From Hephaestia sp. MAHUQ-44 (GTDB taxonomy: Bacteria; Pseudomonadota; Alphaproteobacteria; Sphingomonadales; Sphingomonadaceae), in NCBI RefSeq assembly GCF_023806085.1, contig NZ_JAMSLX010000006.1, positions 7,501 through 71,500 of the forward strand: a stretch of 64,000 nt of DNA, written 5' to 3'. Within the stretch, counting starts at the first letter, position 1. Each line of letters begins with the position of its first letter. The position numbers and the translations under genes are program-made. Under the pieces are notes generated by a model. It had not been told where the DNA came from, did no database searches, and saw only the letters and a program-made list of their open reading frames with translations. This document shows positions 20,927 to 57,820 of the stretch, piece after piece.

Positions 20927-20952
20927 GGCGGGTTCCCGCTGACGCCCTCTCC

Positions 20953-21040
20953 TCCGTTCGTGCTGAGCCTGTCGAAGCACCGTCCTGCGCTTTCCGGCCG
21001 AGAAGAAGGAGCGGCGCTTCGACAGGCTCAGGGCGAACGG
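20953..21040. repeat. CCGTTCG...CGAACGG inverted repeat after modC
   Basis: Left arm CCGTTCGTGCTGAGCCTGTC and right arm GACAGGCTCAGGGCGAACGG form a long near-perfect inverted repeat around about 48 bases. A second copy is at 35436-35519. This is a familiar short dispersed repeat of GC-rich proteobacteria. Confidence 0.75.
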
Positions 21041-21049
21041 AGTGCGCAT

Positions 21050-30006: not shown

Positions 30007-31179
30007 ATGATTTCGCACCGATCGTTCGTGGCCACGGGCCTTGTCGGGCTGGCGCTCGCCGGCGGGCCGGCGCGTGCGCAGGACCAGGCCCAGACACCGC
30101 AGACCCCGCCGGCGGAAACCACGCTGCCGAACACCATTCCCGGCCTCGAGAATTTCAGCCTGCCGCCGTCGAACGATCGACTGCGCGCACCGCAAAACAC
30201 ACCCCGCACCGCGCCGACACCGCGCGCCAGCACGGCGCCCACCGCCACGCCGCCACCCGCCCCGACGCCCCGCGCGTCGCCGCTGATGATCCAGCCGCTG
30301 CCGACGCCGAGTGCGGCGCCGCTGCCACAGCGCACCCCGGCGCCGCGCGCGACCGCGGCCCCCATGCAGGCGCCGACCGCGACGCCTCCCCCCGAGCCGC
30401 AGGCCGAAGCGACGCCCGCCCCGATCCCGGTCGCCGCGCCGTCGCCCGTCGCCTCACCCGTGCCGACCCCTATCGCCACCGCGACACCGCTGGCCGACAC
30501 GCCCGACGGCCCGAACGGGCGATCGCTGCTGCCGCTGGTGCTGGTGTTGCTCGCGATCGTGGTGGTCGGGCTCGCCTGGTTGTGGCTGGCGCGCCGTCGC
30601 GCCGGCCCTGACGCCGAGGACGCGGCAGCCGATACCGCAGCCGAGCCGATCGCGCCGTTGCCGTCCCGCGCTGCCCAACGGCCCCGGCTCGATCTGGGCT
30701 TCCGTCCTCGGCGCGCGGGGATGAATGTGCTCAGCGCCGCGGTCGATTACGAACTGGTGGTGCGCAACCAGGGCGACGCTGCCGCGCGCGACGTGCGGAT
30801 TGCGTTGCAGCTTTTCACCGCGGGCGACCATCACGACGCCGAGTTGCGTGATTATCTCGACGACCCCGTCGAGGCGCCGATCGTCGCCGCGTTCGATCTT
30901 GCCGCCGGCGAAACCAGGACGGTGCGGGCGATCGCGCTGCTGCCCAAGGAAGCTGTCAACGTCGTCACCGTGCAGGGGCGGCCGATGTTCGTGCCGCTGG
31001 TCGCGATCAACGCGCTCTATCACTGGGGGACCGACCAGCACGGCCAGACCGCGACCAGCCATGTCGTCGGCATCGCCCAGCCGGGCTCCGCCAAGATGCA
31101 GCCCTTCTGGCTCGATGCCCCGGCCCGGATGTACGATCGCGTCGGCGAACATGCCCATGCGATTGCGTTGACGCGGTAG
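30007..31179 (+). CDS. Proline-rich single-pass membrane protein of unknown function
   Basis: 390 residues. A signal peptide (about 1-24, cleavage probably after ARA) is followed by about 130 residues of Pro/Ala/Thr-rich linker, one transmembrane helix (about 176-196, LPLVLVLLAIVVVGLAWLWL) and a C-terminal globular domain. That domain looks like a beta-sandwich of the CARDB/DUF11 sort (VDYELVVRNQGDAAARDVRI, then FDLAAGETRTVRAIALL). ATG 30007 follows GGGG; the overlapping GTG at 30004 is less likely. I do not recognise a named family. A family A repeat begins immediately after its TAG stop. Confidence 0.75.
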   Translation: MISHRSFVATGLVGLALAGGPARAQDQAQTPQTPPAETTLPNTIPGLENFSLPPSNDRLRAPQNTPRTAPTPRASTAPTATPPPAPTPRASPLMIQPLPTPSAAPLPQRTPAPRATAAPMQAPTATPPPEPQAEATPAPIPVAAPSPVASPVPTPIATATPLADTPDGPNGRSLLPLVLVLLAIVVVGLAWLWLARRRAGPDAEDAAADTAAEPIAPLPSRAAQRPRLDLGFRPRRAGMNVLSAAVDYELVVRNQGDAAARDVRIALQLFTAGDHHDAELRDYLDDPVEAPIVAAFDLAAGETRTVRAIALLPKEAVNVVTVQGRPMFVPLVAINALYHWGTDQHGQTATSHVVGIAQPGSAKMQPFWLDAPARMYDRVGEHAHAIALTR

Positions 31180-31277
31180 AGTGATTTCGAGCCAGATGGA
31201 ATCATCTGGCAACTCCGAAATTGCGACAAACAAAAGATAATCCAGTGACGCTCCGGTTCAATGAGAACCGGACCGAC
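31180..31277 (-). repeat. Family A hairpin-core-hairpin element, copy 1
   Basis: In minus orientation: hairpin CCGGTTC-N5-GAACCGG, a conserved core with GGATTATCTTTTGTTTG, then hairpin CCAGATGATTCCATCTGG. It matches the copies at 56779 and 57632 along almost its full length. It starts right behind the stop of the proline-rich gene, and its other end is fused to the transposase remnant, whose last codons read into it. Confidence 0.85.
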
Positions 31278-31743
31278 GCCAGTCATTCAGTTCCGGTATC
31301 TGGCGGATTGGATTGACGATGAAGCGTTCTGGCTCTGACGCCCAGGTTTTGACGATATATTCGTAGGGTGTGAGGCCGCTGAGCGTCTTGAGCCGGCGCG
31401 CAAAGTTGTAGGCCGCCAAAAAGTCGGCGAGGTGCACCCGTAATTCGCCATGGCTGGCGTAGTGGAAGCGTTTGACGGTTGCATCTTTGATCGTGCGGTT
31501 CATCCGCTCGACCTGCCCGTTGGTCCAAGGATGGCTTGGCTTGGTGAGCCGATGCTCGATGCCGACGAACAGGTAAAGCCTGCCTTCAGCGGTCTGGACC
31601 TCCGCGATATCCTCGTGAAAGTTGATCCCCAGTGCTCGGCTCACCGCCGCGAGCGACGCTTGCGATCGCTGTATTGCTGCTCGGACGGCGTGCATGGTCG
31701 TGGCGCTCCCGTGACATACCTGTCCTACAAGGCTTCCGCCCAT
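31258..31743 (-). pseudogene. IS481-type transposase remnant with internal deletions
   Basis: A 161-residue frame with strong resemblance to IS481/IS3-like transposases. The N-terminal helix-turn-helix start (GQVCHGSATTMHAVRAAIQR) runs to LGIN and then jumps to the first catalytic segment (DIAEVQTAEGRLYLFV). It then jumps again to the late region GIEHRLTKPSHPWTNGQVER, which carries the catalytic Glu. Members of the family are usually about 310 residues, so roughly half the protein is missing, including the middle catalytic Asp. Both joins keep the frame open. The C-terminus (about DWRRSGSH) is read from the adjoining family A repeat, so that end of the IS is also lost. It cannot transpose itself. 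Confidence 0.82.
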
Positions 31744-35432: not shown

Positions 35433-35519
35433 CTTCCGTTCGCCCTGAGCTTGGCGAAGGGCCGCTCTCCTCACGCGCTGGGGAAAGATACGGTGCCTCG
35501 ACAAGCTCAGCACGAACGG
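35433..35519. repeat. CCGTTCG...CGAACGG inverted repeat, second copy
   Basis: Arms CCGTTCGCCCTGAGCTTGGC and CTCGACAAGCTCAGCACGAA (then CGG) surround about 50 bases. It matches the element after modC and lies in the convergent gap between the MAPEG and metallo-beta-lactamase genes. Confidence 0.72.
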
Positions 35520-38042: not shown

Positions 38043-39278
<1,236 letters not shown>

Positions 39279-39391
39279 TTCGAAGTCCGGCACCGGCCCG
39301 CTCCCCCCCAAAGTAATACTTTGTGGGGACCCCGTGGAGGAACGGGCCGGTACCGAACCATCCGAAAATCCGCCTTCGGCGGAATTTTCGG
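39279..39391. repeat. Family B element, copy 1 (after the aminotransferase)
   Basis: Outer arms CACCGGCCCGCTCCCCC and GGGCCGGTACCG enclose the near-perfect palindrome CCAAAGTAATACTTTG (about 39309-39325). A flanking hairpin CCGAAAAT...ATTTTCGG follows at 39362-39391. The copy is shorter than those at 43693 and 52501: the second inner hairpin is missing. The 276-bp gap 39279-39554 holds nothing else recognisable. Confidence 0.85.
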
Positions 39392-39554
39392 ATCAGACAC
39401 TCAGATGAACGGATCGCCCAGCGTGCGTTAAGCCGCCGGGCGACACACCGGTTGCCAGTATCGCGAGTCGGATTCTCCGATTCGCGATGGTCTTTGCCAC
39501 CGGCGCGTTCGCGGGCACCCGCGCGACGCAGGATGGATAGAAAAGGTAAGAACG

Positions 39555-40747: not shown

Positions 40748-40770
40748 GCGTTTTTGGCAGGTATACCGCA

Positions 40771-40830
40771 CCGGCCCGCTCCCCCACCCGGCCACAAGAT
40801 GGCAGGGGTGGCCAGGCGGCAGCGCGGGCC
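40771..40830. repeat. Degenerate family B element
   Basis: The left arm CACCGGCCCGCTCCCCCACC is identical to family B, but the core is replaced by GGCCAC...GTGGCC (40790-40813), and the right arm is reduced to AGCGCGGGCC. It lies directly behind the twin-TM gene. Confidence 0.6.
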
Positions 40831-40849
40831 ACTACAGTAGCGAAAAGGG

Positions 40850-42705: not shown

Positions 42706-43682
42706 CGGAGCAACGCACGATCGCGGACCACGAGACGATTGCAGCCGATCCGGCGTTCCGCGCCGATGTGCTCGCGGGGCTGGCGGCGCCGCAGCGCGCG
42801 GTGCCGGCGCGCTGGCTGTACGACCGGCGCGGCTCGGAATTGTTCGAGGCGATCACCGACCTGCCCGAATATTATCCGACCCGCACCGAAACGGGCATTC
42901 TCACCGCGAGCGGGCCCGACATTGCCGCCAAAGTGGGGCCGGGCCGCGCGGTGGTCGAGTTCGGATCGGGATCGTCGGCCAAGACCCCGCTGCTGCTGCG
43001 CGCGATCGCGCCCGCGGCCTATGTGCCGATCGACATTTCGGGCGATTTCCTGCGCGATTCGGCAGCCACGCTCGCGAAGGAATTCCCTGCGGTGCCGGTG
43101 ATCCCGGTCGAGGCCGATTTCATGGAGCCGATCACGCTGCCGCGCGCGATCCGCGCCCTGCCCAAGCTCGGCTTCTTTCCCGGCTCGACGATCGGCAACC
43201 TCGTGCCGCGCACCTCGGTCGATCTGTTGCGCGCGATGCGCGAATCGCTTGGCGACGACGCGTTGCTGCTGATCGGGATGGATCGGGTGAAAGGCGAGGA
43301 CGTGCTGGTGCCCGCCTATGACGACGCGGCCGGGATCACCGCGGCGTTCAACCTCAATTTGCTCGACCGGATCAACCGCGAGCTTGGGGGCACGATTCCG
43401 GTCGATGCCTTCCGCCACCGTGCGATCTGGAACGAGACGCTGACCCGGATCGAGATGCACCTCGAGGCGACGCGCGACGTCAATTTCACGATCGACGGGC
43501 ATGATTTCGCGATGACGGCAGGCGAGACGATCCACACCGAGAACAGCCACAAATACGGCCCCCGCGACGCACGGATGCTGCTGCTCGCGGGTGAATGGAC
43601 CCCGGTGGCCGAATGGACCGACGCCGACGATCGCTTCGCATTGCTGCTCGCCGAGGCGCGGCCCCGCAGGAAAGCGCCTTAG
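42702..43682 (+). CDS. egtD: L-histidine N-alpha-methyltransferase EgtD
   Basis: A 326-residue SAM methyltransferase that makes hercynine from histidine, the first step to ergothioneine. The SAM loop VVEFGSGSSAKTP is near residue 85, with the family motifs LYDRRGSELFEAI, FFPGSTIGN and IHTENSHKY. The start is TTG 42702, overlapping the egtB stop; no ATG gives a full N-terminus. EgtC and EgtE are not nearby, so other enzymes must complete the pathway. Confidence 0.92.
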   Translation: MTEQRTIADHETIAADPAFRADVLAGLAAPQRAVPARWLYDRRGSELFEAITDLPEYYPTRTETGILTASGPDIAAKVGPGRAVVEFGSGSSAKTPLLLRAIAPAAYVPIDISGDFLRDSAATLAKEFPAVPVIPVEADFMEPITLPRAIRALPKLGFFPGSTIGNLVPRTSVDLLRAMRESLGDDALLLIGMDRVKGEDVLVPAYDDAAGITAAFNLNLLDRINRELGGTIPVDAFRHRAIWNETLTRIEMHLEATRDVNFTIDGHDFAMTAGETIHTENSHKYGPRDARMLLLAGEWTPVAEWTDADDRFALLLAEARPRRKAP

Positions 43683-43692
43683 GGCGCGTTTG

Positions 43693-43869
43693 GCAATGCG
43701 CCTTCCGGCGCATTGCGGCGGCACCGGCCCGCTCCCCCACGGGGTCCCCACAAAGTAATACTTTGTGGGGTAACACCCCCACCCCACCTCCCAACGGCAG
43801 TATACTGAATGGGAGGTGGGGTGGGGGAGCGGGCCGGTGCCGCCTCGGAAATCGCTCTTCCGCGATTTC
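43693..43869. repeat. Family B element, fullest copy (convergent gap egtD/DUF1176)
   Basis: Order: hairpin GCAATGCGCC/GGCGCATTGC; outer arm GCACCGGCCCGCTCCCCCA; palindrome CACAAAGTAATACTTTGTG; second hairpin CCCACCTCCCA/TGGGAGGTGGG around TATACTGAA; outer arm GTGGGGGAGCGGGCCGGTGC; hairpin GAAATCGC/GCGATTTC. The element fills nearly all of the 199-bp convergent gap. Confidence 0.9.
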
Positions 43870-43881
43870 TCAAACAGACTC

Positions 43882-44997
43882 CTACCGCCGCACCACCTGC
43901 GTACGCCAGGTCGTCAGCAAATTGGGGTTGCCGCGACATTCGCCCATCGCCGCTTCCTGCGCGAGGCGGAACATGCGGCCATCCCAGACGAAATCCTGTT
44001 CGACCCCGCAATCACCCAGACCACGCCCTCTGGCGTAGCTCGACACCACGCCGCCCGAGACGCTGGGGTTGACGACCTCGGGCAGGTCGGCGGGCGCATC
44101 GGTTTCCGAAAAACCCGAGGCGGCATCGATCCGGGCGGGGGCAGGCTTGCCGTCCTTGAGCACGAACATGACCGAGCTGAAATTATAGGCGCCGCGGCTG
44201 CACGGCACGAGCACCAGCGTCGCGCCGTCGCCGAGCGGGTGCGCTTCGGGTTCGATATCGGCGACCAGCGTACCGTCGCAGCCCGCGCGCTGTTTCAGGT
44301 CGGCCGCCATCGTCGCGCCGATCTGCGCACTGCCGGTGGCGACGGGCGGCGCGACGATCACCGGCAGCGCAGGCGCCGCGGGCACCGCGCTCGCGGGCTG
44401 GTTGCCCTTGGCGACGATCGCGGTGACGGTGCCCGCGCGATGCTGCTCGGCATCGATATAGCGCAAACTCGCCGACGCCCCCGCGAGCGAGAGCGTGGCG
44501 AGCACCGCACCGTGCGAATCGCGCACCGTGAGTTGCTTGCCGTTGGCCAGCGCATAAGCGATCGCGGTGGCGGCATTGCCGGTCACGATCGTGCTGCCGT
44601 CTTTCACCGCCGGGAACGCATCGCCCACCGGGGTATTATCGACCACGAGCCTGGCCGGGATCACGCCATCCTGATTGACCATGAGCGCGACCGCGATCGT
44701 GCCGTCGGGCCCGGCCTCGCGGGTCAGCGCGAGGTTGACCGCGTAGAAATCGCCATCCTCGGGCGAGAGCGAGGCCATCGAGCATTCGCCGCCATTGTCG
44801 CACGCGACCGTCCAGTCGGCGAAGGTGCGCGGCGCGGCGGGACGCGGTGGGGCGTGGCTATCGGGCGCATCGGCGGGCGACGGCGCGGCGGCGGCGCCGG
44901 TGTCGGCCTTGGCCGTCGGCATGGCCTCGTTGCCGGGCGTGGAACCCGAACAGGCGGCGAGAGCGGACAGGAGAGCAAGCGCGGCGATCGATTTCAT
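43882..44997 (-). CDS. DUF1176 domain-containing lipoprotein
   Basis: 371 residues. A lipoprotein signal (LSALAACSG, Cys near 16) and a disordered Ala/Pro linker precede the DUF1176 domain, which has paired beta halves with conserved cysteines ([14 protein letters not shown] near 64, then [31 protein letters not shown]). The cysteines suggest disulfides in the periplasm. Function unknown. Divergent from the 3-hydroxybutyryl-CoA dehydrogenase gene. Confidence 0.87.
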
Positions 44998-45010
44998 GAT
45001 CTCGTCTTAT

Positions 45011-45067
45011 CTGTTTCAGTGTCGCTGAAACAGGGGCGGCGCCGGCGCCGCTTCCACGCCAGTGGAA
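45011..45067. repeat. Collapsed family B-type element upstream of 3-HB-CoA dehydrogenase
   Basis: Hairpin CTGTTTCAG/CTGAAACAG, the 16-bp palindrome GCGGCGCCGGCGCCGC, and hairpin TTCCAC/GTGGAA. Read in reverse, the same two hairpins in the same order flank the 52501 element, but the large core has shrunk to the 16-bp palindrome. Confidence 0.7.
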
Positions 45068-45120
45068 TAAACTCTAGAGCGCCTCCAGCAGGGAAGTTTT
45101 TGGATCAGGGGAACAGCGAG

Positions 45121-45990
45121 ATGCAGGCAGTCGGCGTAATCGGCGCGGGGCAGATGGGCGCGGGGATCGCGCAGGTTTCCGCACAGGCGGGGTATCATGT
45201 GCTCCTGACCGACATCTCGAAGGACCGCGCCGAGGCGGGCAAGGCCGGGATCGCGAAGCAGCTTGGCCGGCTGGTCGAGAAGGAAAAGATCGACGCGCAG
45301 GCGCGCGACGCGACGCTCGCCCGGATCGAGCCGATCGACGGCGTCACCGGCATGTCGACCTGCGGGCTGGTGATCGAGGCGGCGACCGAGCGCGAAGAAA
45401 TCAAGCGCGCGATCTTCGCCGATGTCGGCAAGGTACTCGGGCATCAGGCGGTGCTGGCATCGAACACCTCGTCGATCCCGATCACGCGGCTCGCGCAGGC
45501 CTCGCCCGATCCCAGGCGCTTCATCGGCGTGCATTTCTTCAACCCCGTGCCGCTGATGGGGCTGATCGAGGTGATCCGCGGGCTCGCCACCGCCGACGAC
45601 ACCGTCAAGATCGTCGAGACCTATGCCGCCGCGCTCGGCAAGCGCGTCGTCCACGCCAACGACGCGCCCGGCTTCATCGTCAACCGCGTGCTGATGCCGA
45701 TGCTCAACGAAGCGTGCTTCGCGCTCGGCGAGGGCGTGGCGACGATCGCCGATATCGACGCCGCGTGCCAATTGGGGCTCAACCATCCGATGGGGCCGTT
45801 CACGCTCGCCGATTTCATCGGGCTCGACACCTGTCTGGAGATCACCAAAGTGCTGTTCCACGGCACCGGCGACCCCAAATTCCGCCCCGCGCCGCTGCTC
45901 GTCAAATATGTCGAGGCGGGCTGGTACGGCCGCAAGACCAAGCGGGGCTTCTACGATTATGCGGGCGATACCCCGGTGCCGACGCGGTGA
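45121..45990 (+). CDS. 3-hydroxybutyryl-CoA dehydrogenase
   Basis: 289 residues. It interconverts acetoacetyl-CoA and 3-hydroxybutyryl-CoA with NAD(P)H. The dinucleotide-binding [13 protein letters not shown] starts at residue 5, the catalytic His138 lies in [13 protein letters not shown], and Asn, Pro and Gly of the C-terminal domain ([27 protein letters not shown]) are intact. ATG 45121, RBS AGGGG. With the phasin gene at 54626 it suggests polyhydroxybutyrate or short-chain acyl-CoA metabolism. Confidence 0.95.
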
Positions 45991-45994
45991 GTAT

Positions 45995-46345
45995 CTAGAG
46001 CCGCAGCCCGAACCGGGGGCCGACCCACATCATCGCCGCGTAAAGCGCGATGGTGAGGACGCAGCCGGCGAGCAGCGCGATCCAGAACGGTACGCCGTGC
46101 CGCAACAAGGCCGGTATCAGCAGGAACATCGGCAACGACGGCAACACGTACCAGAAGGTTGCGGCGGCGTGCTGGGCCATGTTCTCGGCGTCGGGCCGCG
46201 CGCGCCACAGCCAGATCATGCCCAGAATCGACACCAGCGGCAGCGAGGCAATCAGGGCGCCGAACGCCGGCTGCCGTTTCGCAATTTCCGAGACGAGCGC
46301 GATGATCACGCCCGATACCAATGCCTTGACGATCAGGAACAGCAC
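45995..46345 (-). CDS. DUF3147 family membrane protein
   Basis: 116 residues with four hydrophobic helices spanning almost the full length (KALVSGVIIALVSEIAKRQP, then ASLPLVSILGMIWLW). It starts at GTG 46345, four bases after the nucleoside transporter stop, so it is probably co-transcribed. Function unknown. It converges with the dehydrogenase gene across four bases. Confidence 0.85.
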   Translation of the reverse strand: MLFLIVKALVSGVIIALVSEIAKRQPAFGALIASLPLVSILGMIWLWRARPDAENMAQHAAATFWYVLPSLPMFLLIPALLRHGVPFWIALLAGCVLTIALYAAMMWVGPRFGLRL

Positions 46346-46349
46346 GACA

Positions 46350-47612
46350 TCACGCGATCAATAGCCCCGCGAGCGCGGCCGACATCAGATTGGCGAGGCT
46401 GCCCGCGATCAGCGCGCGGATGCCGAGCTTGGCGATCATCGGGCGCTGGTTGGGGGCGAGCCCGCCGGTCACCGCCATCTGGATCGCGATCGACGAGAAA
46501 TTGGCGAAGCCGCACAGCGCAAAGGTGACGACCGCGACGGTGCGCGGGCTGAGTGTATCCTGCACCTGCCCGAGATCGATATAGGCGACGAATTCGTTGA
46601 GCACGATCTTCTCGCCGAAGAAGCCGCCCGCCGCGCCCGCTTCGTGCCAGGGGATGTTGAGCAGGAACATGACCGGCTTGAACACCATGCCGAGCAGCCC
46701 CTGAAAGGTCAGCCCCGGCAGCCCCACCAGATTGCCCACCCCGGTGAGCAGCCCGTTGGCGAGCGCGACCAGCGCGACGAAGGCAAGCACCATCGCGCCG
46801 ACCGCGACCGCGAGCTTGACCCCGGTCTGCGCCCCTTGCGCGGCGGCCATGATGATGTTGGCGGGCTTTTCCTCATCGTGCGTCGCATCGGCCAGCGCGA
46901 TTTTTTCATCCTCGGGATGGTCGCCCAGCGGCAGCTCGCCATCGGTATCGGCGGGCGTATCGGGCATGATGAGCTTGGCCATCAGGATGCCGCCGGGCGC
47001 CGCCATGAACGAGGCGGCAAGCAGATAATCGATGCGGATGCCCATCGAGGCATAGGCCGCGAGGATCGTCCCCGCGACCCCGGCCATGCCGCTGGTCATC
47101 ACCGTGAACAATTGCGCTGGCGTGAGGCCGGCCAGATAGGGCCGAATGACGAGCGGCGATTCGCTTTGGCCGACGAAGATGTTGGCCGCCGCGCACAAGG
47201 ATTCGACCTTGGAGACGCCGATCACTTTCTCGATCCCGCCGCCGATCCAGCGCACGACGAGCTGCATGATCCCGAGATAATAGAGGATCGAGACGAGGCT
47301 CGCGAAGAAGATGATGACCGGCAGCGCGGCGATCGCGAAGCTGTTGCCGCCGATGTCGGGGCTCGCGAGCGGGCCGAAGATGAAATCGACCCCGGCCTTG
47401 GCATAGCCGAGCAGATTGGAGACCCCGCCCGACAGAAAGGCGAGCACCGATTTGCCCCACGGCACGTAGAGCACCAGCACCGCGATCCCGACCTGGAGCG
47501 CGAACGCGGCGCCGACGACGCGCAGGCGGATCGCGCGGCGATCGGTGGAGAGCGCGACGGCGATCCCGAGGATGAGCAGGATGCCGGCGATGCCGATCAG
47601 GATTCGTGTCAT
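46350..47612 (-). CDS. NupC/CNT family nucleoside transporter
   Basis: 420 residues, about ten transmembrane helices; concentrative nucleoside importer driven by protons or sodium. Family motifs: LYYLGIMQLVVRWIGGGIEK, FVGQSESPLVIRPYLAGLT and the late ALCGFANFSSIAIQMAVTGG. A longer polar loop lies at about 219-250 (DTPADTDGELPLGDHPEDEK), where family members vary. ATG 47612. Confidence 0.93.
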   Translation of the reverse strand: MTRILIGIAGILLILGIAVALSTDRRAIRLRVVGAAFALQVGIAVLVLYVPWGKSVLAFLSGGVSNLLGYAKAGVDFIFGPLASPDIGGNSFAIAALPVIIFFASLVSILYYLGIMQLVVRWIGGGIEKVIGVSKVESLCAAANIFVGQSESPLVIRPYLAGLTPAQLFTVMTSGMAGVAGTILAAYASMGIRIDYLLAASFMAAPGGILMAKLIMPDTPADTDGELPLGDHPEDEKIALADATHDEEKPANIIMAAAQGAQTGVKLAVAVGAMVLAFVALVALANGLLTGVGNLVGLPGLTFQGLLGMVFKPVMFLLNIPWHEAGAAGGFFGEKIVLNEFVAYIDLGQVQDTLSPRTVAVVTFALCGFANFSSIAIQMAVTGGLAPNQRPMIAKLGIRALIAGSLANLMSAALAGLLIA

Positions 47613-47785
47613 GCGATGGCAGTTCCGCGCTTACGATCAGGAGCACGCGGCCCCCGGCTGCGCGACGGCAACGATGACACGACGTTCGGCGCGACGCTAG
47701 ACCTATCGTGTGCTCGCCTCCCCCGTTTCCCCGCGGCGTACAAGGTGCTTTTGCATCGCGATTCTTTTGACTAGCATCGCGCGCC

Positions 47786-48475
47786 ATGAGCCAATCCGCG
47801 CCCGCGATCCCACGATCGCTTTTCGCTTTCTCGATCTTCTACGGCGGGATGGTCTGCATCGCAGGCGTGCTCGGCAACAAGCAGGTATCGCTGGGGCCGG
47901 TATCCGAACTGGGCAACCTGTTCGGCATCGGCCCGCTGGCGGTGGAAGCGGGGATCTTCGCGTTCCTGCTGCTCGTCGTCACCTCGAGCGCGGTCGCCGA
48001 GCTGCACGGGCGCACCCTCGCCAACCGGCTGGTGCTGATCGGCTTCGTGCCGCTGATCGTATCGATCATCCTGTCGGTGATCGTCCACGCGCTGCCCGCA
48101 TCGCCGGCGATGCAGCCCGAGAATCGCGACGCCATCCAGCGCATTCTGGGCGGCACCTGGCGCATCTGGACCGGCGGGATCGTCGCCTATGGGATTTCGC
48201 AGACGCTCAACGTCACGATCTTCTCGGCGCTCAAGGGGCACGAGGGCAGCCGGCTGCTGTGGCTGCGCGCCGCGCTCGCCAGCATCCTCAGCCAGATCGT
48301 CGACACGTTGCTGTTCGTCACGATTGCCTTTGCGGGCGTGTTCCCGATCGGCGAATTGCTCGCCGGGCAGATGCTCGCCAAGGTGGTGCTCTCCGCGGTG
48401 CTGGTGCCGCCGGTGATCTATCTGTTCGTCGCGATCGGACGGCGGCTCGATGGTTCTCCTCGGGTCGAAGCGTGA
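47786..48475 (+). CDS. Queuosine precursor transporter (YhhQ/VUT family)
   Basis: 229 residues, six or more hydrophobic helices. Family features: the early AGVLGNKQVSL segment, AELHGRTLANRLVLIGF and SQIVDTLLFVTIAFAG. VUT proteins import preQ0/preQ1 for tRNA queuosine. No preQ1 riboswitch could be recognised in the 173-bp leader, which otherwise appears empty. Confidence 0.88.
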   Translation: MSQSAPAIPRSLFAFSIFYGGMVCIAGVLGNKQVSLGPVSELGNLFGIGPLAVEAGIFAFLLLVVTSSAVAELHGRTLANRLVLIGFVPLIVSIILSVIVHALPASPAMQPENRDAIQRILGGTWRIWTGGIVAYGISQTLNVTIFSALKGHEGSRLLWLRAALASILSQIVDTLLFVTIAFAGVFPIGELLAGQMLAKVVLSAVLVPPVIYLFVAIGRRLDGSPRVEA

Positions 48476-48526
48476 CGCAAGCGCGGATGCTTTCGCTGGC
48501 GTGACCGCCACGCTATGGGAGCGCGC

Positions 48527-49426
48527 ATGACCGATCATACGCCCTCCCCCGCCTTGCTCGCCAAGGCCGAAACGCTCACCGAGGCGCTGCCCTATCTCCA
48601 GCGCTATGCGGGCGAGACCTTCGTCGTCAAATATGGCGGCCACGCGATGGGCGATCCCGAGGCGCAGCGCGATTTCGCCGAGGACGTGGTGCTGTTGAAG
48701 GCGGTCGGGATCAACCCGGTCGTGGTTCATGGCGGCGGGCCGCAGATCGGCGCGATGCTCAAGCGGCTGGGGGTCGAATCGCACTTCGTCGGCGGTCTCC
48801 GCGTCACCGACGCCGCCACTGCCGAGGTCGCCGAAATGGTGCTCGCCGGCAAGATCAACAAGGAGATCGTCGGCTGGATCGCGGCGCTGGGCGGGCGCGC
48901 GGTGGGGCTGTCGGGCAAGGACGCCAACCTCGTCATCGCCGAGAAGGTGCGGCGCACCGAGCCCGACCCCAATTCGGGGATCGAACGCCATGTCGATCTG
49001 GGCTTCGTCGGCGATCCGGTGCAGGTCGATCCGCGCATCCTGACCAATCTCGCGGCGGACAATTTCATTCCCGTGGTGGCGCCGGTGGCGCTGGGCGCGG
49101 ACGGCGCGACCTACAATATCAACGCCGACACGATGGCGGGCGCGATCGCGGGCGCGCTGGGGGCCAAGCGCTTCTTCCTGCTGACCGACGTCGCCGGCGT
49201 GCTCGACAAAGCGGGCGAATTGCTGACCGATCTCGACGAGGCGAAGATCGCCGCGCTCAAGGCCGACGGCACGATCTCGGGCGGGATGATCCCCAAGGTC
49301 GATACCTGCGTCGCCGCGGTCGAGGCGGGGGTCGAGGCCGCCGTCATCCTCGACGGGCGGATCCCGCACGGGATGCTGCTCGAAATCTTCACCCGCCGCG
49401 GCGCGGGTACCCTGATCGGGAAATAG
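48527..49426 (+). CDS. argB: Acetylglutamate kinase
   Basis: 299 residues. It phosphorylates N-acetylglutamate in arginine synthesis. The N-terminal [24 protein letters not shown] and the late [13 protein letters not shown] and [11 protein letters not shown] motifs are intact. ATG 48527 is preceded by GGGAG; the ATG 12 bases upstream is part of that site. Confidence 0.96.
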
Positions 49427-49506
49427 GCGTTGGGGCGGACAGGGGTTGTTGCCCCGCGCCGCTTTCCTGTAACCACTCCCCTTTCCTCATGCCTGCGGAG
49501 GCCCGC

Positions 49507-49812
49507 TTGATCGCCGTCTTTCAGATCCTGACGATTCTGCTCAACATCCTGTGGTGGATCATCATCGTCCAGGCGATCATGTCCTGGCTGATCGGGTTCA
49601 ACGTCATCAACCTCCACAACGAGCTCGTCCGCTCGGTGTGGTACGCGCTCGAAAAGATGACCGACCCGCTGTATCGCCCGATCCGCAAGATCATGCCCGA
49701 TTTCGGCGCGCTCGATCTGTCGCCGCTGGTCGTGCTGCTGATCATCTACATCCTGCAGGCGGTGGTGCTGCCCAATCTCGCGATGTCGCTGATCGCGCCC
49801 GTCACCTATTGA
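49507..49812 (+). CDS. YggT family membrane protein
   Basis: 101 residues with two hydrophobic helices and the YggT signature LEKMTDPLYRPIRKIMP between them. Start TTG 49507 is favoured by GGAGG at ideal spacing and a family-like first residue; ATG 49489 lacks an RBS. First gene of the yggT-DUF167-folD-marC run. Confidence 0.88.
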   Translation: MIAVFQILTILLNILWWIIIVQAIMSWLIGFNVINLHNELVRSVWYALEKMTDPLYRPIRKIMPDFGALDLSPLVVLLIIYILQAVVLPNLAMSLIAPVTY

Positions 49813-50111
49813 GCGGCTGGCGCGCGACCGAAGCGGGAATCGCGCTGGCGGTGCGCGCCACCCCGCGCGCATCGCGTGACGGCTGGGGCACGCACGGGCC
49901 CGACCATTTCGGCGTCCGCATCGCCGCCCCGCCGGTGGACGGCGCCGCCAACGAACGGCTGATCGCGTTCGTCGCCAAGGCGTTCAAGGTCGCCAAGCGC
50001 GACGTGGCGCTGATCGGCGGCGACACCGGGCGGCTCAAGCGGCTGGCGATCACGGGCGATCCCGACACGCTGGCGGGAATCGCCGCGAGCCTTTATGGGG
50101 CGCAGACATGA
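49809..50111 (+). CDS. DUF167 (YggU-like) protein
   Basis: A 100-residue small alpha/beta protein with the family core [30 protein letters not shown] and [14 protein letters not shown]. Start TTG 49809 overlaps the yggT stop as TTGA; its own stop overlaps folD as ATGA. Function unknown; the yggT-yggU pairing is conserved in proteobacteria. Confidence 0.88.
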
Positions 50112-50986
50112 CGGCAGAGATCATCGACGGAAAGGCATTCGCGCTGGGCTTGCGCGCGCGCGTGGGCGAACAGGCAGCGGCGTTCACCGCCAAGACCGGG
50201 CGCAAGCCGGGGCTTGCGGTGGTGCTCGTCGGCGAAGACCCGGCCTCGTCGGTCTATGTCCACTCCAAGGGCAAGGCGACCGCAGCGGCGGGGATGCAGG
50301 GGTTCGAGCACCGCCTGCCCGCGACCGCCAGCCAGGCCGAGCTGATCGCACTGGTCGATACGCTCAACGCCGATCCCGCGGTCGACGGCATCCTCGTCCA
50401 ATTGCCGCTGCCCAAGCACATCGACGACCGCGCGATCATCACGCGGATCGATCCCGACAAGGATGTCGACGGCTTCCACCCGGTCAATGCCGGGCGGCTC
50501 GCGACCGGGCTTGAGGGTTTCGTGCCGTGCACGCCGCTGGGCTGCCTGATACTGCTCAAGCACCAGCTCGGCGATCTCGCGGGCAAGGATGCGGTGGTCG
50601 TCGGCCGGTCGAACATCGTCGGCAAGCCGATGGCGGCGCTGCTGGTGAAGGAAAGCTGCACCGTCACGGTCGCGCATTCGCGCACCCGCGACCTCGCCGG
50701 CGTGATCCACCGCGCCGATATCGTCGTCGCCGCGGTCGGCGTGGCCCAGCTCGTCAAGGGCGAGTGGATCAAGCCGGGCGCGGTCGTGATCGATGTCGGC
50801 ATCAACCGCACCGAGGACGGGCTGGTGGGCGATGTCGATTTCGACGGCGCCGCGAGCCATGCGGCCGCGATCACCCCGGTGCCGGGCGGGGTCGGCCCGA
50901 TGACGATCGCGTGCCTGATGCGCAACACGCTGGTCTCGGCGTGCCGGCGCGAGGGCATCGCCTATGACCGGCACGCGCTGGGATGA
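50108..50986 (+). CDS. folD: Methylenetetrahydrofolate dehydrogenase/cyclohydrolase FolD
   Basis: A 292-residue bifunctional folate enzyme: NADP-dependent dehydrogenase plus cyclohydrolase. The catalytic Lys is in [15 protein letters not shown] (near 56). [31 protein letters not shown] and the [11 protein letters not shown]-terminal signature are intact. Coupled by four-base overlaps to the genes on both sides. Confidence 0.97.
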
Positions 50987-51624
50987 GCATCGCGGCGCTC
51001 ACCGAATTGTTCGTCTCGGCGCTGATCACCTTCTTCGTCGTTATCGATCCGCCGGGCTGCGCGCCGATCTATGCCGGGCTGACCGCGGGCGCGAGCGCAG
51101 CGCACCGGCGCGCGATGGCGATCCGCGCGGTCGGCGTCGCGGCGCTGATCCTGGTCGTGTTCGCGCTGTTCGGGCACGATATCCTGCGCGCGCTCGGCAT
51201 CAGCCTTGATAGTTTCCGCATCGCGGGCGGGATCATGCTGTTCCTGATCGCGCTCGAAATGGTGTTCGAGAAGCGCACCCAGCGCCGCGAGGATCGCGCG
51301 CAGAAGATCATCGATACCCCCGAGGTGGAGGACGTCTCGATCTTCCCGATGGCGATGCCGATGATCGCCGGGCCGGGATCGATCGCGAGCGTGATGCTGC
51401 TGATGTCGCAGGGGCAGGGTATCCCGCACACGCTGGTGATCCTCTCCGCGATGGGCGTGATCCTGCTGCTCACGCTCGCCGCGCTGCTGCTGGCTGGGCC
51501 GCTGATGCGCATCCTTGGCGCGAAAATCGAGGCGGTCATCACGCGACTGCTGGGCGTGTTGCTGGCCGCGCTGGCGGCACAATTCGTCATCGACGGCCTG
51601 ATCGCAAGCTTCGGCAACGCCTGA
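50983..51624 (+). CDS. MarC family membrane protein
   Basis: 213 residues, six hydrophobic helices. The N-terminal [17 protein letters not shown] and the central [20 protein letters not shown] motif define the MarC/UPF0056 family of inner-membrane proteins of unknown function. ATG overlaps folD. The last helix shows [20 protein letters not shown]. Confidence 0.93.
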
Positions 51625-51706
51625 CGCGGGCGGCCGCCCTCGCCTCGGCGGGCAAAAGAGTATATGATCGCCGGTGCGGGAGGGCTGGGCTTCGGGAGAG
51701 GCACCA

Positions 51707-52495
51707 ATGACGACGCTCGCTCAATCGACCCCCGCCCCCGATGCGGCGGAGACGCGCATCCACCAGATCGACGGCGACGACCTGCGCTGGGCGCTGCGTG
51801 AAGGCTGGAACGATTTCCGATCGATGCGCGGCGACATCCTGTTCGCGGCCTTGCTCTATCCGCTGATCGGGTTGATCGCGGCGGCGATCACGTTCGATTC
51901 GCGGCTGCTGCCGTTGTTCTTTCCGCTCGTCGCCGGGCTCTCGATCCTCGGGCCGATCGTCTCATCGGGCTTTTACGAACTCGCGCGCCGCCGCGAGGAA
52001 GGGCGCGAGGCGAACTGGACGCACTTCCTCGATCCGCTCCGCGAACGACGGCGCGGGATCGTCGAGCTGACGATCTGGCTCGTCATGCTTTTCCTGATCT
52101 GGCTCGGGGTCGCGTGGCTGGTCTACGATCTGACGCTGGGCGCGCTGGCGCCGGCCGATATCGGCAGCTTCCTCACCGCGCTGTTCACCACGCGCGAAGG
52201 CTGGACGATGATCGTTCTGGGCAATGTCGCGGGCGCCGTTCTCGCCGCGGTCACGATCGCGACGACGCTGGTCGCGGCGCCGATGGTGGTCGACAAGGCG
52301 GTCGAAGCCGACAGCGCGATCGCCGTGTCGCTGCGGGCAACGCGGGCCAATGCCGGCACGATCACCCGCTGGGGGCTGATCGTCGTCGCGCTGCTCGTGA
52401 TCGGCGCGATTCCGGTGTTCATCGGGCTGGCGGTGGTGCTGCCGGTGCTCGGCTACGCGACCTGGCACCTTTATACGCGGCTGGTGGAGCGGTGA
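51707..52495 (+). CDS. DUF2189 domain-containing membrane protein
   Basis: 262 residues, five or six hydrophobic helices after a hydrophilic N-terminus with DLRWALREGWNDFRSMRGDILFAALLYPLIG, typical of DUF2189. The function is unknown; in alphaproteobacteria such proteins are found alone. ATG 51707 has GGGAGAGG upstream. Confidence 0.86.
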   Translation: MTTLAQSTPAPDAAETRIHQIDGDDLRWALREGWNDFRSMRGDILFAALLYPLIGLIAAAITFDSRLLPLFFPLVAGLSILGPIVSSGFYELARRREEGREANWTHFLDPLRERRRGIVELTIWLVMLFLIWLGVAWLVYDLTLGALAPADIGSFLTALFTTREGWTMIVLGNVAGAVLAAVTIATTLVAAPMVVDKAVEADSAIAVSLRATRANAGTITRWGLIVVALLVIGAIPVFIGLAVVLPVLGYATWHLYTRLVER

Positions 52496-52500
52496 ACCGA

Positions 52501-52664
52501 TTCCACTGACGTGGAAGCGGCACCGGCCCGCTCCCCCACCGGGTCCCCACAAAGTAATACTTTGTGGGGTGCACCCCGCCCCGCCTCCCATTCAGCATAA
52601 TGTCTTGGGAGGTGGGGCGGGGGAGCGGGCCGGTGCCGCCGCTGTTTCAGAGGGCCCTGAAACA
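52501..52664. repeat. Family B element (convergent gap DUF2189/murA)
   Basis: Order: hairpin TTCCAC/GTGGAA; arm GCACCGGCCCGCTCCCCCA; palindrome CACAAAGTAATACTTTGTG; hairpin CCGCCTCCCA/TGGGAGGTGGGG; arm GGGGGAGCGGGCCGGTGC; hairpin TGTTTCAG/CTGAAACA. It occupies nearly all of the 183-bp gap between two stop codons. Confidence 0.9.
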
Positions 52665-52678
52665 ACGGCTATAAATCC

Positions 52679-54391: not shown

Positions 54392-54512
54392 GCAGGCTGA
54401 AAATATGGCAAGCCGAGGCGGAAGGGCAAGGGGCAGTGGGCGACGTTCACCCTCTTTCGTCATTCCCGACGAAAAGGGCGACCGCCGATTCGGCAGCCGC
54501 CCTGAAGCGTCC

Positions 54513-54612
54513 CCGGCCCGTTCACCCACACCACCGGCCCAAACATTACGCGGGCGATGAGCAAGCGAACGGGCCGGAGCCGCGATCGGGCTCAGCGTAA
54601 GCCGAGCCCGAT
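54513..54612. repeat. Family B-like inverted repeat between clpS and the phasin gene
   Basis: CCGGCCCGTTC (54513) and GAACGGGCCGG (54567) are an 11-bp inverted repeat around 43 bases. An adjoining hairpin, ATCGGGCTC/GAGCCCGAT (54584-54612), follows. The layout is that of family B, with arms differing by one base and a different core. It fills most of the 234-bp gap 54392-54625. Confidence 0.6.
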
Positions 54613-56220: not shown

Positions 56221-56778
56221 ATGAACGTCACGTTCGCCATGCTGGCGGCGCCCGTCGCATTGATCGCGGTGGCGCTGCCGGCGCAGGACCAGGCCGGCGA
56301 CATCGCCGACAAGATCATCAACAACCCGAACCCGCAGGCTTTCCAGGTCTATAACGCGCCCGAACCCGCACGCGTGGTGGCCGACAAGAAGGTGCAGGGA
56401 GGCCATGCGCTGCGCGTCCAGATTCCCGGTGGCAGCGCGCAGCCGTGGTCGATCTCGCTTTCCGACCCGATCGACAGACCGGTGGCGAAGGGTGATCGGC
56501 TGGTACTCGCTTTCTATGCGCGCGCCGCCAGAAGCGAGGCCGCCGGCGGCGGCGCGCATCTGCCCAACAACGGCGTCCAGCTCGCCAGGGCACCCTATAC
56601 CGGGATTTTCGGCGGTGCGGTCGACATCACGCCCGACTGGACGATGTATCATCTGCAAGGCGTCGCCGATCGCGATTACGCCGCCGGCGAGCTGGCGGTG
56701 TCGATGCACCTCGCCTCGGGCAAGCAGACACTCGAATTCGGGCCGATCTTCGTGCTCGATCTCGGCCCGCCCTCCTAG
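56221..56778 (+). CDS. Exported protein with carbohydrate-binding-like beta-sandwich
   Basis: 185 residues. A signal peptide (about 1-20) precedes one domain resembling a CBM4/9 or galactose-binding fold (GHALRVQIPGGSAQPWSISLSDPI, AKGDRLVLAFYARA, DWTMYHLQGVADRDY). This fold is found in front of xylanases, but here it stands alone with no catalytic domain. ATG 56221 has GAGGGGG upstream. A family A repeat begins at its stop codon. Confidence 0.7.
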   Translation: MNVTFAMLAAPVALIAVALPAQDQAGDIADKIINNPNPQAFQVYNAPEPARVVADKKVQGGHALRVQIPGGSAQPWSISLSDPIDRPVAKGDRLVLAFYARAARSEAAGGGAHLPNNGVQLARAPYTGIFGGAVDITPDWTMYHLQGVADRDYAAGELAVSMHLASGKQTLEFGPIFVLDLGPPS

Positions 56779-56880
56779 CGTCGATCCGGTTCTAAAGGAA
56801 CCGGATCGCCCCTGGATTATCTTTTGATTGCCGTTATTTCCGAGTCGCCAGATGATTCCATCTGGCTCGAAATCACTCTG
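56779..56880 (+). repeat. Family A hairpin-core-hairpin element, copy 2
   Basis: Begins at the base after the TAG of the preceding gene: hairpin CCGGTTC-N5-GAACCGG (with a GATC extension), core GGATTATCTTTTGATTGCC, hairpin CCAGATGATTCCATCTGG, then AAATCACTCT. Plus orientation, same as the copy at 57632. Confidence 0.88.
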
Positions 56881-56989: not shown

Positions 56990-57631
56990 ATGCTCGAACA
57001 TGTTCCCCGTTGGCTTGGTACGGCGATGCGGGGGATGCGCGCGGGCGCGGACAAGCTCGCGATCGTCCAGCTCAGCGACGGGGTGGAATTGGCGACGATC
57101 GACCTGATGAGCCCGGCCTTCGCCAATGAAGGCCGGCTACCGCCACGCTTCACCGCCGATGGTGCGGGGGTGTCGCCGCCGCTCGTCTGGGGCGCGCTGC
57201 CGCCCGCGACCGCGGCGATCGCGCTGATCGTCGAAGATGCCGACGCGCCGACGCCGGCGCCGCTCGTCCATGCGATCGTCTGGGATCTGCCGCCCGACGA
57301 ACACCGGATCGCCGAGGGCGCGATCACCGCCGACGGCGCGGGCGAAGCCGATGGCCGCGATGTCGGCCGGCATTCGTTCTTTGGGGAGGGCTGGCTGCCG
57401 CCCGATCCGCCGACCGGGCACGGCGAGCACCGTTATGCGTTCCAGCTCTTCGCGCTCGACGACGATACCCCCGATCCCGGCGAAACCCCGCGCCGTGCCG
57501 CGCTCGTCAAGGCGATGCGCGGGCACGTGCTGGCGGCGGGCTTGTTGATCGGCACCTATTCGCGCGGCGAACCGCGGCCGATCGGCACGTCGCCCGCGGT
57601 GACGGGGCTGGCCTCGGCGGGGCGCGGCTAA
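56990..57631 (+). CDS. YbhB/YbcL (PEBP) family protein
   Basis: 213 residues with a phosphatidylethanolamine-binding-protein fold (GRLPPRFTADGAGVSPPLVWGALPP, VEDADAPTPAPLVHAIVWDLPP, YAFQLFALDD). Bacterial PEBPs are small ligand-binding proteins of unknown role. There is no obvious signal peptide. ATG 56990 with GGAG nine bases upstream. It lies between two direct copies of family A. Confidence 0.88.
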   Translation: MLEHVPRWLGTAMRGMRAGADKLAIVQLSDGVELATIDLMSPAFANEGRLPPRFTADGAGVSPPLVWGALPPATAAIALIVEDADAPTPAPLVHAIVWDLPPDEHRIAEGAITADGAGEADGRDVGRHSFFGEGWLPPDPPTGHGEHRYAFQLFALDDDTPDPGETPRRAALVKAMRGHVLAAGLLIGTYSRGEPRPIGTSPAVTGLASAGRG

Positions 57632-57730
57632 CGTCGGTCCGGTTCCAACAGAATCGGACCGACTCTGGATGATCTTTTGTTTGCCGCGATTGCCGAGTCG
57701 CCAGATGATTCCATCTGGCTCGAAATCACG
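57632..57730 (+). repeat. Family A hairpin-core-hairpin element, copy 3
   Basis: Begins at the base after the PEBP stop: hairpin CCGGTTC-N5-GAATCGG, core GGATGATCTTTTGTTTGCC, hairpin CCAGATGATTCCATCTGG, AAATCAC. Its last base adjoins the stop codon (CTA) of a 29-residue frame on the other strand, so it fills a convergent gap exactly. Confidence 0.88.
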
Positions 57731-57820
57731 CTAGGCCAGACCGGTGATCCCGGCGGCGCAACCGGCGATCAGCAGGGTTGTCGCCGCAAACGAGGCGAAA
57801 GCGATCAGAAAACTACGCAT
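57731..57820 (-). CDS. Very small lipoprotein-like peptide (29 residues)
   Basis: MRSFLIAFASFAATTLLIAG followed by a Cys: a hydrophobic helix and lipobox-like LLIAGC, ending TAG 57731-57733. The RBS is weak. Its stop coincides with the family A element end, a relation also seen for copy 1, which supports it being a gene. Family unknown. Confidence 0.45.
   Translation of the reverse strand: MRSFLIAFASFAATTLLIAGCAAGITGLA

Follow-up and report, generated by a model that had tools for sequence, protein, structure and literature searches.

Miniature inverted-repeat transposable elements (MITEs) of the IS5 family are among the described systems closest to the elements reported here. Rhizobium intergenic mosaic elements (RIME), which are mosaics of palindromic motifs between the genes of an alphaproteobacterium, are similar by description. 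So are the pneumococcal SPRITE, RUP and BOX elements, which belong to another host but are likewise small and subject to nested insertion, SPRITE carrying a terminator-like sequence (excerpts of PMC10969869). We analyzed a 64,000-nt stretch (the window) of Hephaestia sp. MAHUQ-44 (contig NZ_JAMSLX010000006.1, positions 7,501 to 71,500; draft genome of 3.51 Mb), with emphasis on two hairpin elements at window positions 45011-45067 and 52501-52664. These two belong to a large, probably mobile family of very small, gene-less, three-hairpin units that lie directly behind genes in sphingomonads. No description of this family was found in the open-licence PubMed Central papers searched, where intergenic repeats or MITEs of Sphingomonas or Sphingomonadaceae yielded no paper at all, and our statement is confined to that literature.

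Like IS5-family MITEs, the units are short and non-coding, are often present in one genome and absent from a relative (13 of 21 sites), and, in class C, have GAG-type ends and TNA flanks as seen in the IS5 relatives that we scanned. Unlike those MITEs, they hold two dissimilar hairpins and a palindromic core inside their ends, at least two kinds of ends surround the same core, and no autonomous IS5-type partner was found in their own genome. Like the REPINs of the PMC3116915 excerpts, they are palindromic, intergenic and dispersed, with compensatory changes in their stems; they differ in their unlike arms and TNA flanks. The family is ordinary in kind, a family of miniature transposons, and unusual in build, with a palindromic core that is remodeled after insertion, hairpins in mostly fixed pairs, more than one type of end and insertion at stop codons.

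The initial annotation had proposed that the same two hairpins flank different cores at 45011-45067 and 52501-52664. Both elements are indeed built in this way, in mutually opposite orientation and with the hairpins in the same relation, although the TTTCAG hairpin at 45011 has a loop of 5 nt rather than the 6 nt assigned to it. Within the window each of the two hairpin patterns is found twice, compared with a mean of 0.01 in 100 shuffles. A genome-wide search gave eight places for TTTCAGN{2,12}CTGAAA (none in the control), all of which adjoin a core, mini-core or core remnant by eye. TTCCACN{2,10}GTGGAA occurs at three places and equally at three in the reversed control, so that this pattern alone is not enriched; its third place (L031) adjoins only a possible core remnant. 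The other hairpins named in the annotation (ATGCGCC, AAATCGC and TCCGAAA) are real as well, the first two occurring at 10 places each genome-wide against none in controls. We read the mini-core of the small element as the base of a core stem that remained after internal deletion. At the corresponding site, Hephaestia caeni DSM 25527 has CGGCACCGGCCCGC and retains a TTCCAC side together with part of one stem arm, and the other arm (TTTCAG) is absent. Most likely, the 45011 element is a unit of the 52501 arm class that has shrunk, rather than an empty docking site.

The family is large. A query spanning 52495-52670 matched the genome 127 times, with many of the hits overlapping one another on a single palindrome. 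The 17-nt stem base, with up to three mismatches, matched 127 times on the forward and 126 times on the reverse strand, versus 32 and 27 for a reversed control. A 23-nt stem base had at least one match in 80 of 199 genomes of the bacterial family, and in seven of those 199 a manual count with strands summed reached at least 30 matches. This patchy spread over Sphingomonadaceae genomes suits a mobile element. Three of 72,556 plasmid records matched a query of 43676-43885, and no phage record matched.

From outside to inside, a unit consists of an outer end, an arm hairpin and a palindromic core with a stem of about 30 bp, followed by a second arm hairpin and outer end. We tabulated 98 cores from the Hephaestia genome and from H. 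caeni, the nearest named relative among 80 loci listed (argB 98% identical); 13 of 92 candidate cores were discarded by hand as weak, nested or odd. Arms were recognized on both sides of 34 cores, on one side of 34 and on neither side of 30. The both-armed cores fall mainly into class C (ATGCGCC/AAATCGC, 19 of 34), class B (TCCAC/ATTCAGC, nine) and class A (TCCAC/TTTCAG, three), the last being the class of 45011 and 52501. The odd pairs are two TCCAC/TCCAC and one TCCAC/AAATCGC; by eye, two of these three were misread, L018 (left arm ATGCACC...GGTGCAT) and L025 (arm TTTCAC...GTGAAA), which leaves one TCCAC/TCCAC pair as tabulated. Arms thus occur mostly as fixed pairs. A further unit of the window, 39271-39400, has different arms and is termed class D. 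Long cores contain an extra 42-nt hairpin module with repeated CCCCCAC at its flanks (by eye). A perfect 30-bp stem is present in 34 of the 77 short cores. Watson-Crick pairs fill 95.4% of stem cells, compared with 87.6% after arms were shuffled among copies, and in 149 cells both sides are altered.

Comparison with H. caeni shows that units come and go whole. The window and two collinear stretches (contig C15, ~39-152 kb, and contig C37, ~31-244 kb minus a gap of ~17 kb) were aligned, and the 21 sites at which one or both genomes have a core stem were tallied manually. Eight are occupied in the Hephaestia genome only, five in H. caeni only and eight in both (Table 1). The tally leaves out C37:244491 (end of the stretch), the half core C37:225692 and the lone arm C37:51458; the downstream flank of C37 209058 is unaligned, several absent sites contain other repeats, and the counterpart of H. 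caeni 514980 holds a possible remnant. At the one-sided sites arms and core are absent together, and by eye none of the 13 counterparts holds an arm pair without a core. The 52501 site, for example, is reduced in H. caeni to one base between two aligned gene ends. The contrast of empty and filled sites that the initial annotation had called for therefore exists, for the whole unit and not for the core alone. A 10-bp duplication considered at H. caeni C3:668700 was rejected since it includes part of the left end of the unit itself; a length of 3 bp (TAG/TAA) is a better fit.

Cores also shrink in place. Three shared sites have a full core in one genome and a shortened core in the other: a 78-nt core at C37:236553-236630 corresponds to 37 nt in H. 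caeni (C3:669536-669572), with paired changes in both stem arms; a 37-nt core at C37:48086-48122 corresponds to 80 nt (C3:463585-463664), with arms that have decayed differently; and C37:112084 is a half core where H. caeni has a full one. Small cores are thus best read as shrunken cores. Elsewhere than in the aligned stretches, L008, with a long core, and L181, with a short one, have both flanks and both arms in common and differ by the 42-nt module (by eye), which indicates gain or loss of the module within an inserted unit. In the class C unit L049 the arms are only 21 nt apart, with TCA on both sides. Where identical arms enclose different cores, the best explanation is change inside one inserted unit.

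The ends of the units point to how they may have moved. Class C ends read GAGTCTGTTTGAGA, and these and the class D ends (GAGTCTGATTC) are short terminal inverted repeats like those of IS5-family elements (GAGGCTGTTTGGGA, an IS left end, and GAGCCTGATTCGAA). In 14 class C units with both ends passing, TNA lies outside 12 left and 10 right ends (22 of 28), whereas TNA makes up 3.4% of intergenic triplets. The two flanking triplets are identical in five of the 14 (permutation mean 2.1, p 0.039), and L230 would be a sixth if a one-base indel were allowed. By eye, identical triplets also flank the class D unit 39271-39400 (TCA at 39268-39270 and 39401-39403), the hybrid L232 and L268, a plasmid copy from Novosphingobium. 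By our own coding score one of the two end triplets is the in-frame stop codon of the neighboring gene in nine of 14 units, or eight of 13 with the orthologous pair merged, two of them TAG and so not TNA. By our own gene calls, stop codons account for 12.7% of intergenic TNA sites; against this share, the probability of eight or more of 13 is 4.7e-5, and that for TGA and TAA only (six of 13) is 0.003. A uniform control (~1e-15) was set aside because it takes no account of TNA preference. A second type of end carries the same core: two of the nine both-armed class B units (L026, L030) have CTAG at both ends, where 65 CTAG occur in 49,882 intergenic nucleotides.

Similar ends accompany transposase genes. 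The PF13340 domain was found in nine of 10 genomes searched, and at three loci of genome G196 (L272, L280, L294) TNA followed by GAG...GTTTGnGAA lies upstream of it; a right end was seen for L280 alone, weak and with TGA on both sides. The L280 protein is an NF033580 IS5 family transposase with PF13340 and PF01609; of 298 genomes from the bacterial family, 143 have matches to it. Thirty L280-like loci were listed, and 24 were scanned for ends, six partial matches being omitted. Ten of the 24 have GAG ends 904-957 bp apart with identical TNA triplets (Table 1); L323 has GAGCCCGATTC ends and no listed duplication. The IS1031 group of IS5 duplicates TNA on insertion. For most IS427-group members, a published table gives 2 bp.

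We consider it likely that the units are non-autonomous, MITE-like elements moved by IS5-type transposases and then reshaped as palindromes. The likeness of class C and D ends to IS5-family ends flanked by identical TNA triplets would permit mobilization in trans by such a transposase, and class A units, including 45011 and 52501, may have moved as class C did. Since TGA and TAA, two of the three stop codons, fit TNA, insertion there would regenerate the stop, and units would land right behind genes without breaking them. In this reading the palindrome, once inserted, loses its middle and one of its stem arms is converted to match its partner, with template switching as a candidate mechanism of stem repair. 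In class A and B cores of the beta subtype, loops face the two ways relative to the arms in an 11:11 split (five unclassified), and the 42-nt module is found on either side of the core; cores thus flip relative to their arms, and copies also exchange core parts by recombination. Any effect on transcription would be a further putative consequence.

Several observations weigh against IS5-type mobilization or limit its reach. Identical triplets number just five of 14, and two of these (L008, L181) are one orthologous insertion. Fourteen of the 24 scanned IS loci gave no GAG ends with identical TNA, and the scan itself rewards identical TNA triplets, so it shows consistency and not a rate. Among IS5-type elements, the family to which the transposase search was confined, none with class C ends occurs in the Hephaestia genome or H. 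caeni: each has one PF13340 match, the former with an internal stop and the latter inside an IS with other ends, and by eye the class C end pattern gave no IS-sized pair. The units may thus be orphaned. At the ends of class A units, neither a terminal repeat nor a duplication is clear. A site may also be empty through loss: the class C unit 43682-43881 is flanked by TTA and by CTA, which is the stop codon of the minus-strand gene, and its counterpart in H. caeni is 10 unaligned bases, possibly a deletion scar. Finally, the mini unit at 45011 sits between divergent gene starts.

The placement of the units could instead reflect selection for bidirectional transcription terminators or 3'-end stabilizers, mobility being secondary or past. 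Of 30 elements (32 less two "inside" cases, both among the 13 discarded cores, and without the mini unit), 20 lie at tandem, 10 at convergent and none at divergent junctions, against 325, 89 and 123 background junctions of at least 30 nt. Four sites were counted in both genomes; for the resulting 26 sites, the chance of zero divergent cases is ~0.001 by background shares. The 52501 unit has a very stable RNA fold (52496-52678, -128.1 kcal/mol, z -12.1), compared with -30.1 kcal/mol (z -2.9) for 45005-45080. A core lies upstream of cobO, which encodes cobalamin adenosyltransferase, in the Hephaestia genome, H. caeni, Sphingomonas LY.26 and Sphingomonadaceae 3R27E2-A, with like-placed cores in L080, L082 and L100, and another in L100 and Sphingopyxis L106 (by eye); such retention could reflect use as a terminator, or slow decay. 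The core at C15:134853 is present in both genomes with paired stem changes. However, template switching can also yield paired changes (excerpts of PMC8794818), so these do not decide function, and TNA targeting by itself favors stop codons. A consensus terminator scan made no call inside 39271-39400, 43682-43881 or 52501-52664; one call (45088-45074, minus strand) has its tail within the edge of the 45011 unit. C-A/A-C and T-G/G-T stem mismatches are about equal (42 and 45 cells, manual count), which favors no RNA strand. We regard selected termination as the primary explanation as unlikely. A related reading, to which we give similarly little credence, treats the core as shared cargo picked up by several unrelated end sets (TNA, CTAG and the arms of other genera). 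Such a mobile terminator cassette would land in a stop codon, rebuild it by target duplication and end transcription, so that insertion would be harmless or useful.

The initial annotation had inferred either modular exchange of arms and cores or targeted insertion of the core into pre-existing hairpin sites. Parts of the first idea hold. Inner stems of the alpha and beta subtypes occur with both main arm families (A/B, seven alpha and 27 beta; C, 23 alpha and nine beta), the 42-nt module varies between orthologs that share their arms, and in other genera the same core lies between other arms. Two hybrids were seen by eye: L238 joins an alpha/beta core and an ATGCGCC arm to a TCCAC remnant, and in L232 an AAATCGC arm occurs with a class D end. 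The 30 of 98 cores without a recognized arm would likewise suit an independently mobile core. The mostly fixed arm pairs nevertheless speak against free exchange. Core insertion into hairpin pairs is not supported, as no arm pair was seen in the unoccupied counterparts of the 13 one-sided sites and cores at shared sites lose their middle or one half. Core sequence or the partner arm borders all eight TTTCAG places and, for each class C arm, nine of its 10 places (by eye); the lone arms without a core (L051, L054) look like remnants, not pairs. A freely exchanged or independently mobile core is accordingly improbable. Least probable of all are REP/REPIN-type elements that a RAYT tyrosine transposase mobilizes via single-stranded hairpins: the units are palindromic, intergenic and high in copy number, and REPINs are hairpin-forming REP doublets in the same PMC3116915 excerpts, but class C flanks are TNA as in IS5 relatives, and the two arms of a unit are unlike in sequence and so are not two inverted copies of one REP.

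If IS5-type mobilization is correct, a large class of sphingomonad intergenic hairpins would be stop-codon-regenerating miniature transposons. Orthologous before-and-after pairs would then let palindrome shrinkage and stem repair be studied in nature, and paired changes in such stems need not imply a functional RNA.

Table 1. Features of the window (by window position, none assigned a strand), sites compared with H. caeni (by contig) and IS loci
Feature	Location	Details
Class D unit	39271..39400	ends GAGTCTGATTC / GGATCAGACAC; core 39288-39355; right arm TCCGAAA...TTTCGGA
Degenerate core	40764..40836	limits approximate; upstream of cobalamin adenosyltransferase gene
Class C unit	43682..43881	
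Class C unit, left end	43682-43695	
Class C unit, ATGCGCC arm	43696-43713	
Class C unit, long core	43719-43842	
Class C unit, AAATCGC arm	43849-43868	
Class C unit, right end	43868-43881	TCTCAAACAGACTC
Small element, right arm hairpin, class A	45011..45033	CTGTTTCAG-N5-CTGAAACAG (TGTTTCAG hairpin)
Small element, mini-core	45036..45051	GCGGCGCCGGCGCCGC
Small element, left arm hairpin, class A	45052..45067	TTCCAC-N4-GTGGAA
Left arm hairpin, class A	52501..52516	TTCCAC-N4-GTGGAA
Long core	52518..52638	outer stem CGGCACCGGCCCGCTC.../...GAGCGGGCCGGTGCCG; beta inner stem; extra hairpin module
Hairpin of extra module, marker of long cores	52545..52569	CCCCACAAAGTAATACTTTGTGGGG
Right arm hairpin, class A	52643..52664	TGTTTCAG-N6-CTGAAACA
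Degenerate core	54508..54582	ATCGGGCTC hairpin at right
Sites occupied in Hephaestia genome only	C15 46789, 51220, 60019, 137135; C37 73374, 148513, 196992, 209058	
Sites occupied in H. caeni only	C2 514980, 565161; C3 458324, 535772, 668700	
Sites occupied in both	C15 48267, 52552, 62009, 134853; C37 48086, 112084, 119742, 236553	C15 52552 is window 45011
IS loci with GAG ends and identical TNA	L300, L303, L304, L305, L309, L313, L315, L316, L318, L320	

Among the other units of the window, the class D unit 39271-39400 is not present in H. caeni, and the site matching 54508-54582 holds different content there. Rfam gave no match at gathering score within the window. Some copies elsewhere are more complex. 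To the right of one core in H. caeni (L237, contig C1, from 429), two TCCAC-type arms and a second core piece stand in tandem. A long core in H. caeni C3 has an IS in its AAAG hairpin (L274, 925-1890); the IS carries a PF13340 transposase between GGGTCGGGAC-type ends. A short reading frame follows the truncated core L032 (C5:96741 onward) and resembles the start of an IS3-type transposase, possibly another insertion into a core. The interval between the AAATCGC hairpins C36:238306 and C36:241471 was considered as a transposon and rejected, as by eye it holds ordinary-looking genes (a sigma factor and others) and no recognized transposase.

Other repeats were noted as well. A second repeat of ~105 nt has copies 85-87% alike at 31178-31282, 56775-56879 and 57628-57732 of the window, and a 199-nt stretch not in H. 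caeni (C15:132167-132365) resembles it by eye. REP-like inverted pairs with CTCAGCACGAACGG or close variants occur at window positions 20952-21042 and 35435-35519; a similar pair fills C37:42744-42917, the site of a hairpin unit in H. caeni.

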